Shown in pieces: positions 9,226-13,380 of a stretch of 64,000 nucleotides of DNA; positions within the stretch are counted from its first letter, which is position 1, and the number at the start of each line of letters is the position of its first letter. The notes below the pieces were generated by a model. The model saw only the letters and a program-made list of their open reading frames with translations, had not been told where the DNA came from and did no database searches. The position numbers and the translations under genes were made by a program. The DNA lies in NCBI RefSeq assembly GCF_031457495.1, contig NZ_JAVDWM010000001.1, forward strand, positions 1,848,001 through 1,912,000, written 5' to 3'. This DNA is from Sphingopyxis sp. BE259 (GTDB lineage Bacteria > Pseudomonadota > Alphaproteobacteria > Sphingomonadales > Sphingomonadaceae).

Positions 9226-10287
9226 TTACTTCAGCTCGGCACCGTTCAGCACCGTCATGCCCGTGCCGTTCGCCGCGGCCACATCCGCAATCGCCTTTGG
9301 CGAAACGATCAGCCCCTTGGCGTTCAGATAGCCGCCGTCGCTCGCGCCCTTCAGGAACTCGGCGACAAACTCGGCCAGCCCGGGGACGACGCCGACATGC
9401 GCTTTCTTGATATAGATGAACAGCGGGCGCGAACCCGGATAGCTGCCGTCGGCGATCGCGGCATAGCTGGGCGCGACGCCCTGCACCGGCACCGCCTTGA
9501 TCTTGTCCTTGTTCGCATCGAGATACGAAAAGCCAAAGATGCCCAGGCTGGTCGGGTTCTTGTCGAGCTTCGAGATGATGAGGTTATCATTCTCGCCCTG
9601 CTCGACATAGAAGGGCGCACCGCGCAGCGCGGTGCAGGTCGCCTCATGCTTGTCCTTGTCGCTGTCCTTCAGCGCCTTCATTTCGGGGTTCGCATCGCAG
9701 CCGCGGCCCAGGATCAGCTCCTTGAACGCGTCATAGGTACCGCTGGTCGACGGCGGGCCGAACACCGAAATGGCGACGGCGGGCAGCGCCGGGTTTACGT
9801 CTTTCCACGTCTTGGCGGTGTTGGGCTTGCCATAGGGGTTCGCGGCCAGCGCCTTGTACACATCTTCTTCGGTCAGTTTGAAGCCAGGGCCGCGCGTTGC
9901 TTCGCCCAGCGCGATGCCGTCGATGCCGATCTGGACTTCGACGATATCCTTGACGCCATTGGCAACGCAGGTGTCGAATTCCTTTTTCTTGATCCGGCGC
10001 GATGCGTTGGCGATGTCGGGGGTGTCGCCGCCGACGCCCGAACAGAAACGCTCGAAACCGCCACCGGTGCCGGTGCTGTCGATCTTCGGCGTCTTGTTGC
10101 CCGTCGCTTCGGCGAATTTTTCACCGACCGCAGTGGCAAAGGGATAGACCGTCGACGATCCGACGGCGCTAATATAATCGCGCGCGCCGCCACCCGACGA
10201 AGCCTGATCCTGACAGGCGGAAAGCGCCAGCGCGCACACGGCGGCGCCAACGACGCCAAGGGTGCGGGGCGCGAATTTCTGAGCCAT
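9226..10287 (-). CDS. pstS: PstS periplasmic phosphate-binding protein (predicted lipoprotein)
   Basis: A 353-residue substrate-binding protein. The N-terminus has a signal peptide with lipobox L-S-A-C near residue 24, so it is probably membrane-anchored. The phosphate-binding hallmarks are SAVGSSTVYPF and, further on, TGTGGGFERFC, FGPPSTSGTYDAF and a late F-G-F-S-Y segment. It delivers phosphate to PstC and PstA and is the first gene of the operon. The start is preceded by a Pho box about 85-100 bases upstream (10371-10388 on the minus strand). Confidence 0.95.
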   Translation of the reverse strand: MAQKFAPRTLGVVGAAVCALALSACQDQASSGGGARDYISAVGSSTVYPFATAVGEKFAEATGNKTPKIDSTGTGGGFERFCSGVGGDTPDIANASRRIKKKEFDTCVANGVKDIVEVQIGIDGIALGEATRGPGFKLTEEDVYKALAANPYGKPNTAKTWKDVNPALPAVAISVFGPPSTSGTYDAFKELILGRGCDANPEMKALKDSDKDKHEATCTALRGAPFYVEQGENDNLIISKLDKNPTSLGIFGFSYLDANKDKIKAVPVQGVAPSYAAIADGSYPGSRPLFIYIKKAHVGVVPGLAEFVAEFLKGASDGGYLNAKGLIVSPKAIADVAAANGTGMTVLNGAELK

Positions 10288-10370
10288 GGAAAATCCTGTT
10301 GATGGGGGTCGTTACCGAACCAAGCCACCACCCCCGCGGCGACTCGCTGAGCGCCATTTGGGGGTTTTGT

Positions 10371-10388
10371 GTGACGTGTTTGTGACAG
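10371..10388 (-). promoter_or_regulatory. Pho box for the pst-pho operon
   Basis: Read on the minus strand the site is CTGTCAC-AAAC-ACGTCAC, two direct half-sites with an 11-bp period, about 85 bases upstream of the pstS start. It is nearly identical in form to the strongest porin box (CTGTCAC-GTAA-GCGTCAT), including the unusual CG in the second half-site. Confidence 0.82.
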
Positions 10389-10391
10389 GGA

Positions 10392-10409
10392 TTGTCATGG
10401 AAGTGTCAT
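10392..10409 (+). promoter_or_regulatory. Second Pho-box-like site, oriented the opposite way
   Basis: On the plus strand the sequence is TTGTCAT-GGAA-GTGTCAT, again two half-sites 11 bp apart, with a degenerate third (GTGTCC) just after. It is three bases from the pst Pho box but points away from pstS, toward the gene at 10510. It could activate that gene, be left over from a displaced neighbour, or simply extend PhoB binding. Confidence 0.55.
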
Positions 10410-10509
10410 GGAGTGTCCGGCCACCTGTCCCCTTTGAGGCTTGGTTTGAAATTCATGGAGCTATCAAATCAACCGTGTATTGTTGCTTTGAATTAATGAG
10501 GGGAGTCCA

Positions 10510-13053
10510 ATGGATTTTAATCAGATACCAATGCCGTTTAGGGCTCCTGCTTCAGACGATCCTTTCCGAATTTTCTCATCTTTGCCTCGCGTTGGCAATG
10601 TCCCAAATGATCTTTGGCACGGCCAAGCCCAGGCGTTGGAACAGTGGAAGGTTCTTCGCGATCAATCCGACATCTTGCTGTCTCTAAATACAGGCGCAGG
10701 GAAAACTTTGGTTGGCCTGTTGATAGCGCAAAGCCTCGTAAATGAAGGCGTCGATAACGTCGTCTATGCATGTCCTACGAATGATTTGGTGATTCAAACT
10801 GCGAAGCAGGCCATGAATTTTGGCATGTCTGTCACCACAAGAATGGAAGGTCGTTACAGCAACTCAGAATTTGAACTTGGAAACTCATTCTGCATTACAA
10901 GTTACTCGTCCATTTTCAACGGCATGAGTAGCATAATTAAGAATCATTTTCCGGGGGCCGTAATATTTGATGATGCCCATGTAGCAGAAGCGGCAATTAG
11001 AGACTCGTTTACCCTTGAAATCCGCGCAGATAGGGATGGTGATCTTTACAGTAAAGTCGCCGGGCTCTTTCTAGGATATTTTCAGCGATCTAACAGAGAA
11101 AATCGGTATAGAGATGCCATAAATAATGCGCCTGGAGCAAAAAAGTTAGTACTTGTCCCTCCCGACGCTGTTTATGAAAATCGCGAAATGGTAGAAGCAC
11201 TGTTTCGCGCGCACCTAGACACGAGCAAGCTAGATCATAAATTTCCGTATGAGCATCTCAAAGATCATTTAGGTCTATGTTCATTTGTTTTTAGATCCGG
11301 CGTTTTGCAAGTCGCTCCACCATTCTTACCTAGCTTGGCTTTGGACATATTTCGACGCAAAGTTCGGAGGATTTACCTCTCAGCGACATTGAAAAACAAA
11401 GCTGATGTCGTGCGGGCGTTTGGCCGCAAACCAGATCACATCATCGAGCCAAATAATGATGCCGGTAACGGCGAAAGATTGATATTGTTTGAGAGGTTTT
11501 TATCTAATAATTTGAAGATTGAGCCATCTTTTATTCAAGGAATAAGCTCGAAGATAAAAACTCTGATTGCTGTCCCGAGCTATTTTGCAGCTTCACGGTG
11601 GGCGAGCGTTGCATCGCCTCCACCGAAAGATGAGTTTAGCTCTAAGCTTGACGCATTTCGTTCCGCGGATTCGGGTTGCTTTTTATTGGTCTCCCGCGTC
11701 GACGGAATCGATCTCCCGAATGATACTTGCAGGCTAATGGTTATTGACGGGATACCCGTCGGATCGTCGCTCGTTGAGCGTTATCAGCACGAGGTGCTAT
11801 CAATAGACAATTTTATTTCTTCGCGAATGGCTAACAGAATTGTTCAGCTTTTTGGCCGGATTAATCGTGGAAGGAGCGACTACGGCGTATTCATTATCAC
11901 AGGCAACGATATCAATATGTGGCTTGGACGGCGAAAGAACGTGGCTCGGCTTCCCAAGCTCCTCCAGAGCCAAATCCTGCTTGGTCAGACCGTTCAAAAC
12001 TCGATGAATATTCGTAGCTTGGCTTCATTTTCGGAATTGACCGCTAAAGTTCTGCTTAGCGTTCCCAGAGATCAAGGCTGGTTGAATTTCTACACTCAGT
12101 TTCTCGAGGCTGATCAGATTGAAGTCAATATTACGACTGCTGCGGAAAAGGCGGAACAGCGTAATCTCCTAGCTGCGCAAGCAGAAGCGGAGGCTGCTAA
12201 AAATATTTGGATGGGCAACTATGATCAAGCCCGATTGGCACTCGATGAAATTGTCACAGAGGTTTCTCGCTCTGATTCTCGATATGCTGGTTGGTTGAAC
12301 CTTTGGATCGGTGGATGCTTGTTCGCTTCCGGTGAAACGCAGGACGCGTCAGTGTACTTTAATCGCGCCAAAAGTCAGACGGGTGACGGCCTCATTATCT
12401 TGGATCGAGGTCAAGCGGGCGCGATCGAGGGCGAGGATGGTCTGACCGAACCTCAGCGCCGTATTTTGGCTTTGGTTTCAGGAAGTAGAGACAGTTTTAA
12501 TCGACGTATCAGTAAATTCAACACAGACCTTCTCTGCCTTGATGGTGGAAGTCCAAATCAAGTCGAAGAAGCGGTTCGTGCGCTTGGCGAAGCTCTAGGC
12601 TTTACGAGTACTCGGCCTGATAATGACCGCGACGTCGGCCCTGACGTATTGTGGATCGATGATTCCTGTCAGCAAGGCTTTGGCGTGGAGTTGAAGACGG
12701 ACAAGGAAAGGGACTCGCTGCTAAATAAGGATGAGATAGGACAATCACTTAACAACCATCTCTGGATGGATAGAGAGATGGCGGGACATCAAAACCTTGG
12801 TCTTGTTATCGTAGGAGATTTTGCTGGCCATACGCCGCAGTCCACTCCGTCGGATGCTTTGTTTATGGCTAAATTGCCAATCTTCAGCTCTATTAGAGAC
12901 GAGTTCGTTGCGATGCTCCATACCTGTTATGGAATGGCAGAAAGCTCAAGGAAAGAGTGGTTAAAATCGGGCGGATTCAAAGAATTTTCGTTAGAGAACG
13001 TGGCGGGTCGACTGAAGCAACTCAGCCTTGTGCAGAATGCGTTAAATCATTGA
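10510..13053 (+). CDS. Superfamily 2 helicase with C-terminal PD-(D/E)XK nuclease; candidate defence protein
   Basis: An 847-residue protein I cannot assign to a named family. Residues 60-66 are Walker A (NTGAGKT), 89-96 motif Ia, 154-157 the DEAD-box variant DDAH, 290-293 motif III (LSAT), 394-403 a motif V-like stretch and 446-455 motif VI (QLFGRINRGR). Residues 555-625 look like two TPR-type helical pairs. Residues 685-770 form a likely nuclease: GPDVLW with Asp712, then VELKT with Glu727 and Lys729, followed by a Gln-containing helix. The gene is much poorer in G+C (about 45-50%) than its neighbours and uses A/T-ending codons freely, so it is probably acquired. An ATG behind GGGGAG is the start. 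There is no partner gene, so it would act alone. Anti-phage activity is inference. Confidence 0.8.
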   Translation: MDFNQIPMPFRAPASDDPFRIFSSLPRVGNVPNDLWHGQAQALEQWKVLRDQSDILLSLNTGAGKTLVGLLIAQSLVNEGVDNVVYACPTNDLVIQTAKQAMNFGMSVTTRMEGRYSNSEFELGNSFCITSYSSIFNGMSSIIKNHFPGAVIFDDAHVAEAAIRDSFTLEIRADRDGDLYSKVAGLFLGYFQRSNRENRYRDAINNAPGAKKLVLVPPDAVYENREMVEALFRAHLDTSKLDHKFPYEHLKDHLGLCSFVFRSGVLQVAPPFLPSLALDIFRRKVRRIYLSATLKNKADVVRAFGRKPDHIIEPNNDAGNGERLILFERFLSNNLKIEPSFIQGISSKIKTLIAVPSYFAASRWASVASPPPKDEFSSKLDAFRSADSGCFLLVSRVDGIDLPNDTCRLMVIDGIPVGSSLVERYQHEVLSIDNFISSRMANRIVQLFGRINRGRSDYGVFIITGNDINMWLGRRKNVARLPKLLQSQILLGQTVQNSMNIRSLASFSELTAKVLLSVPRDQGWLNFYTQFLEADQIEVNITTAAEKAEQRNLLAAQAEAEAAKNIWMGNYDQARLALDEIVTEVSRSDSRYAGWLNLWIGGCLFASGETQDASVYFNRAKSQTGDGLIILDRGQAGAIEGEDGLTEPQRRILALVSGSRDSFNRRISKFNTDLLCLDGGSPNQVEEAVRALGEALGFTSTRPDNDRDVGPDVLWIDDSCQQGFGVELKTDKERDSLLNKDEIGQSLNNHLWMDREMAGHQNLGLVIVGDFAGHTPQSTPSDALFMAKLPIFSSIRDEFVAMLHTCYGMAESSRKEWLKSGGFKEFSLENVAGRLKQLSLVQNALNH

Positions 13054-13380
13054 TCCTCGTCACCGGCCACGTCATCCTGACCCCCGAGCATCGCGAGCGC
13101 ATGATCGCGCTCGGCGCCGCGCATAGCGCGCGGTCGCGCGGCGAGGCGGGGTGTCTGGCGCACAACTGCCATATCGATGTCGAACAGTCCGACCGCCTCG
13201 TCTTTGTCGAGGAGTGGGCGGATATGGCCGCGGTGCGCGCCCACTTCGCGGTCCCTGCATCGGGCGCCTTCGTCGCCGATCCCGGATCGAGTCCGGGATG
13301 ACGTGCGCGCCCTCTCACCCCAGCCGCCGGTGATGCGGATGTTCTCGGGCGAAGATGTGACGGCGCGGGTGGTGGGATGA
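13050..13380 (+). pseudogene. Antibiotic biosynthesis monooxygenase (ABM) domain gene broken by a small repeat
   Basis: From TTG at 13050 the frame reads ILVTGHVILTPEHRERMIAL and runs to SGAFV, a good match to small ABM-fold quinol-monooxygenase-like proteins of about 95 residues. At about 13274 a mini palindrome of the GATCCCGGATCGAGTCCGGG family interrupts it, giving a false end A-D-P-G-S-S-P-G. Beyond the repeat, in the +1 frame, the expected tail resumes (V-R-A-L-S-P-Q-P-P-V-M-R-M-F). The insertion of about 28 or 31 bases therefore split the gene. Its first codon overlaps the stop of the helicase gene, so the start may also have been altered by the island. Confidence 0.7.
13274..13303. 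repeat. Mini palindromic repeat (family 1) inside the ABM gene
   Basis: The core GATCCCGGATCGAGTCCGGG, followed by ATGACG, is the minimal arm pair of the dispersed family 1 repeat without the usual central spacer. Protein similarity continues on both sides in different frames, which dates the insertion after the gene existed. Confidence 0.7.

Follow-up and report, generated by a model that had tools for sequence, protein, structure and literature searches.

What does a solitary AT-rich gene, lying among GC-rich housekeeping genes of Sphingopyxis sp. BE259, encode, and does it belong to a described system? The gene occupies 10510–13053 of the window, i.e. the whole 64,000-nt stretch analysed here (contig NZ_JAVDWM010000001.1, positions 1,848,001 to 1,912,000), and a sequence-only reading had proposed it to be an undescribed single-gene anti-phage system composed of a helicase, a TPR-like middle and a nuclease. 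Judged by its sequence relationships, the product is a member of the Hna family (short for helicase-nuclease abortive infection), which PADLOC labels PDC-S28, on another branch than the founding protein of S. meliloti. We put the probability that the gene encodes an Hna-family protein and thereby a one-gene abortive-infection defence at roughly 0.93. Hna was reportedly described by Sather et al. in 2023. Structure and mechanism of the S. meliloti protein were given in 2026 (PMC13381803).

Sequence relationships place the product in the Hna family

Scored against the PADLOC models, the protein reached 970 bits with PDLC04987 (PDC-S28; residues 1–840 of 847) and 464 bits with PDLC04986, which carries the same label, while the best model outside PDC-S28, typeIV_DinG, gave 46.6 bits. 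The founder ranked the two models in reverse order (PDLC04986, 1020 bits; PDLC04987, 400 bits), and BLASTP aligned the window protein with it at 27% identity (226/834 columns, E 1e-62). Because of the opposite model order and the 27% identity, we consider the two proteins one family in two branches; the PDC-S28 label spans both, and no difference between it and the window protein was found. Searching PDB sequences at E ≤ 0.001 returned a single match, the 845-residue chain of entries 10UJ, 9YHN and 9YKJ (E 1.6e-58), after which only four weak helicases ranked at E ≤ 1. These entries belong to the Hna defence system (PMC13381803). Over a stretch of 143 residues, the chain agrees without a mismatch with S. 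meliloti 1021 pSymA, on which the founder frame (L065:5827–8364) encodes 845 aa and holds the nine residues mutated in PMC13381803 at their published numbers.

The gene and its motifs are as follows, all on the + strand:

10510..13053, +, hna homologue (PADLOC PDC-S28), intact open reading frame, 847 aa
10687..10707, +, Walker A NTGAGKT (HEL1), residues 60-66, read in the sequence and the homologue alignment
10969..10980, +, motif II DDAH, residues 154-157, sequence, homologue and family alignments
11377..11388, +, motif III LSAT, residues 290-293, sequence and homologue alignment
11845..11874, +, motif VI QLFGRINRGR (HEL2), residues 446-455, sequence, homologue and family alignments
12019..12477, +, helical TPR-shaped middle, approximately residues 504-656, from model secondary structure
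12553..12930, +, PD-(D/E)XK nuclease core, approximately residues 682-807, from model secondary structure
12640..12645, +, P711-D712 (P712/D713 of S. meliloti Hna), pairwise and family alignments
12688..12696, +, E727-L-K729 (E727/K729 of S. meliloti Hna), family alignment

The frame begins with ATG, runs for 847 codons with zero internal stops and is preceded by a GGGGAG stretch at 10500–10505. The helicase motifs and D712, E727 and K729 all lie at the residues that the sequence-only reading had given. In a 59-row alignment (the window protein plus 58 of the best 120 of 1027 homologues, out of 7997 scored), the motif residues of helicase and nuclease were invariant, with A63, L290, T293 and I451 nearly so. 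A Pfam scan of the protein (E up to 10) gave ResIII (51.2 bits), DEAD (36.4 bits) and Helicase_C_2 (30.6 bits) above their cut-offs and one further match below its own; it found neither a TPR nor a nuclease family. In the family alignment, whose rows were the window protein, the founder, ten other plasmid members, the members from the order and 13 database homologues, founder residues P712, D713, E727 and K729 correspond to P711, D712, E727 and K729 of the window protein, and Q39 to Q39.

The AlphaFold2 model of the whole protein (mean predicted local distance difference test score, pLDDT, 88.4; predicted template modelling score 0.86) shows successive helices of TPR-like shape at residues ~504–656 and, around D712, E727 and K729, the order helix, strands, helix, strand, so that the predicted C-terminus has the element order of the nuclease and, together with the Pfam helicase families, the proposed SF2 helicase–TPR-like–PD-(D/E)XK architecture stands. 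As the C-terminal 205 residues alone, modelled without an alignment, gave an unusable model (pLDDT 34.5), which was discarded, the nuclease fold rests on the full-length model. Solved Hna chains were the best fold matches of this model (Foldseek ranks 1–3, VIA ranks 1–2), and the match to the Hna monomer extends to residue 845 of the window protein.

Thus the founder and the window protein share a single gene of ~845 codons with SF2 HEL1/HEL2 followed by PD-(D/E)XK, the nuclease residues and the three Pfam families. They differ in branch, in the dimer loop and Q-motif region, and in location, the founder residing on a megaplasmid and the window gene in the chromosome between pstS and a small gene.

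The hna homologue is patchily distributed and of foreign composition

At E ≤ 1e-25, 8/296 genomes of the order matched the window protein, its own included; that genome (3.67 Mb) contributed one match. Two of the eight, L162 and L164, encode distant Hna-like proteins with His in the column of the catalytic Lys (EAHS). Within the genus, long matches occurred in one of 35 genomes (G016), at two places, the rest having a short helicase match or none. In G016 (regions L073, L074 and L075), the two Hna-like places are chromosomal and lie elsewhere, and its pstS slot, described below, holds another gene. The matches in 51/60 relatives were not counted as Hna except for G016 and a 90-residue match in G047: the remainder covered residues ~372–467, a general helicase portion, and lay mostly in frames of ~900 aa. 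Scanning genome contigs with six peptide patterns taken from the Hna protein found zero relatives. Plasmid records yielded 231 matches, 165 of them covering at least 80% of the query and all below 60% identity, and phage records yielded one, in a 501-kb Salmonella record.

The guanine plus cytosine (GC) content of the gene is 0.469. Of the 64 one-kb bins of the window, the two spanning 11001–13000 are the lowest (0.458 and 0.484), followed by 10001–11000 (0.526), the remaining bins ranging from 0.593 to 0.695, in line with the foreign, AT-rich composition noted earlier.

Proposed mechanism and competing explanations

S. meliloti Hna is described as a 3′-5′ single-stranded DNA exonuclease that ATP restrains in a dimer and that a phage single-stranded-DNA-binding protein (SSB) releases, and this behaviour is held to underlie abortive infection; E727 and K729 nuclease mutants have been reported (PMC13381803). 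According to another study, hna alone restores resistance and modest changes in its expression matter (PMC12445080). By analogy, the two XPD/DinG-like helicase domains of the window protein would bind ATP, which would hold it dimeric with the nuclease restrained. Upon infection, a phage product (SSB in the studied case) would release it, the freed C-terminal PD-(D/E)XK domain would degrade single-stranded DNA from 3′ ends, and the infected cell would die or stall without phage progeny. The data establish an intact gene, the domains it encodes, the kinship of the product and the conservation of its catalytic residues; all activity is deduced by homology. Carrying the founder's nuclease activity over to the window protein appears strongly warranted, carrying over its switch (ATP, dimer, SSB trigger) less so.

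Several points weigh against an Hna that works as the founder does. The overall root mean square deviation of the 9YHN match is high (25.7 Å), and VIA came with the warning that parts past residue 567 were barely tested by its rows. Pairwise alignments of the two proteins place E727 and K729 two residues off, so that the E-x-K correspondence rests on the family alignment, the only one to match them. The founder's dimer-loop residues T30, D31 and P34, used in dimer mutants, and the ATP-site residue R36, mutated jointly with Q39 (PMC13381803), are not kept, the window protein having N-V-P-N-D-L-W; Q39 is conserved, and the loop varies across the aligned Hna-like branches and is not established as family-defining. 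In a 32-row tree, the window protein and the founder fall into separate branches at their 27% identity, with long branches making the deep part unsure. Finally, the literature consulted contains no phage-resistance, nuclease or trigger test of the window's branch.

Some of these differences feed an explanation that refines the Hna reading, namely a diverged sister type that keeps the fold and the nuclease and is switched in another way (dimer interface, ATP handling or phage trigger). In its favour are the mirrored scores of the two PADLOC models, the branch-specific motif NDLWxGQ in place of the founder-type GPLRPxQ, and the separation in the tree, where six founder-type rows form one well supported group, four pTi-type rows another, and the window protein pairs with P0002 (74% identity); this tree omitted two G016 rows, which represented wrong frames, and the seven remaining rows from the order ran from stop to stop without an assigned start. 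Yet catalytic motifs, length and fold are common to both branches, and loop differences need not alter the mechanism. We regard a changed switch as plausible, at somewhat under even odds.

A housekeeping repair helicase or exonuclease of the DinG/XPD kind is, by comparison, already disfavoured and very improbable. The HEL domains do resemble DinG/XPD, the XPD-like helicase fold being shared with DinG, ExoDinG, CasDinG and XPD, and a likeness of Hna to ExoDinG has been pointed out (PMC13381803). In contrast to these proteins, however, the window nuclease is C-terminal, and the typeIV_DinG score is a small fraction of that for PDC-S28. The gene is also patchy (seven of the 295 other order genomes match, and one of 35 genomes of the genus has a long match), its GC content is foreign, and its site is empty or otherwise filled in relatives. 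The iron-sulphur site of XPD consists of four Cys, for which the two between Walker A and DDAH in the window protein (C88 and C128) are too few; in this the protein agrees with Hna, which has no iron-sulphur cluster cysteines.

The undescribed defence system of the sequence-only reading, in favour of which the homologue names seen are general (for instance ‘DEAD/DEAH box helicase family protein’ and ‘hypothetical protein’), is refuted by the full-length match to PDC-S28 and to a solved Hna, and we give it almost no weight. The searches thus place the protein in a named, characterised defence family, and what is known is that family, Hna having already been described. The observations of that reading were confirmed and its interpretation was partly supported: the lack of a partner gene was upheld, and the anti-phage role persists as one that kinship to Hna/PDC-S28 would imply.

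A variable slot flanked by pstS and a small gene

The hna homologue fills a short interval that differs between related genomes:

9226..10287, −, pstS, left border gene, named by our reading of its sequence and operon
10371..10388, −, Pho-box-like site facing pstS, CTGTCACAAACACGTCAC, 14/18 to the Pho-box consensus
10392..10409, +, Pho-box-like site facing the slot, TTGTCATGGAAGTGTCAT, at the left edge, 14/18 to the Pho-box consensus
10413..13050, no strand, variable slot, lacking an equivalent in the relatives compared, from DNA comparison of loci
13050..13301, +, small ABM-like monooxygenase gene, right border, named by our own reading

The TTG start of the right-hand gene overlaps the hna stop (13050–13053); most relatives have ATG. 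The pstS flank had a DNA match in 43/60 relatives. In ten related regions compared, left homology ended at window positions 10397–10415 in 10/10 and right homology began at 13045–13051 in 8/10; by eye, the intervening frames differ, and one interval measures 303 bp. L070 and L076, which lack the right-hand match, contain IS3-like transposase frames by our reading.

We extended the comparison to 80 loci, of which 52 were taken as Sphingopyxis-like and 40 had both edges placed (11 of the 12 dropped had no DNA match to the right gene, one had a truncated left match). Left homology ended at 10397–10418 (10409–10415 in 36 loci), and right homology started at 13051 in 31 loci and no more than 6 bases from there in the remaining nine. 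Interval length ranged from −10 to 2432 bp, and mean GC was 0.474 in the 36 loci above 300 bp. As a control, the pstC–pstS gap measured 64–302 bp in 49 measurable loci. In 28 loci of other genera, a relative of the right-hand gene was not found within the stretch examined around pstS. L137 is apparently free of cargo; its Pho-box TGTCAT runs straight into approximately the fourth codon of the right gene, which looks like a deletion between short TCAT repeats.

A cargo frame of at least 90 aa was present in 34/40 loci, amounting to 57 frames, which were picked mechanically and may include a few that are not genes. All-against-all BLASTP related only seven pairs at E ≤ 1e-5; by sequence, the slot content is mostly unrelated between loci. 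Of 30 chosen frames scanned singly with Pfam, 18 matched above cut-off, four only below and eight not at all, and a recombinase family was not found among them. PADLOC matched nine of 20 frames scanned singly at E ≤ 1e-3 (one marginally) and 11 not, and all 57 scanned jointly gave many general AAA models among the best 25 of 314 families. Defence-type families, in which we counted AAA_15/AAA_21 and HipA_2 by our own judgement, occurred in 13/34 filled loci. Cargo, by locus, comprised the following, L078 to L105 of the list being the 13 with defence-type families and L088, L101 and L118 belonging to the others, some of which have no family:

L078, AAA_15 with weak PIN
L079, AAA_15 with HNH
L087, AAA_21 with weak DUF4435
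L102 and L115, AAA_15
L112, AAA_21 with RloB
L089, Beta protein
L104, type II methyltransferase
L107, Drt8 reverse transcriptase
L142, SIR2 with STAND
L082, Schlafen AlbA_2
L100, HipA_2
L105, DitA
L088 and L101, DUF7946
L118, DUF4747

The cargo of L088, L101, L118, L114, L090 and L099, which has DUF7946/7947 or DUF4747 or lacks any Pfam family, constitutes candidate defence genes.

Across the 40 loci, the best Pho-box scores (of 18, same consensus) were 14–17 for the slot-facing and 13–15 for the pstS-facing site, values that are not independent because the flank is homologous; 15/1000 random window stretches reached 13. Promoter-like and terminator-like sites were not commoner than in shuffles. 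In 19 loci the last cargo gene points away from pstS, and in 15 it points toward pstS; it ends within 25 bases of the small-gene start in 15 of the 19 away-facing cases, and lies within 25 bases of it in one of the 15 toward-facing ones. This unbiased orientation lends no support to a strict Pho-driven expression slot, and that reading was set aside. An integrase-type attachment site was likewise rejected, no repeat common to both edges being visible by eye. Selection on the edges themselves, a Pho-box-like site on the left and the small gene's start codon on the right, explains their sharpness equally well.

It is conceivable, if unlikely, that the slot is a genus-wide exchange site in which small defence cassettes, one at a time and without mobility genes of their own, are swapped by recombination in the conserved flanks, the away-facing ones being read from the conserved slot-facing Pho box and running into the small gene, which would tie the resident defence (Hna in the window) to phosphate starvation. 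Core-genome defence hotspots of Pseudomonas aeruginosa (PMC10250203) and E. coli (PMC10121019) likewise keep one chromosomal site while the defence genes in it change, but the Sphingopyxis slot differs in its size, which does not exceed 2.4 kb across the 40 loci and is 2.6 kb in the window, and in holding mostly one to three genes. A literature search of titles and abstract openings, with preprints and most subscription papers outside its scope, found no paper on the pstS-side slot.

Implications

With its differing dimer loop, the window's branch lends itself to comparative work on the restraint and triggering of Hna. The slot, in turn, is a short, sharply bounded place with a conserved gene on either side that supplies a small set of candidate defence genes, and it could matter more than the membership of its present occupant in the Hna family.
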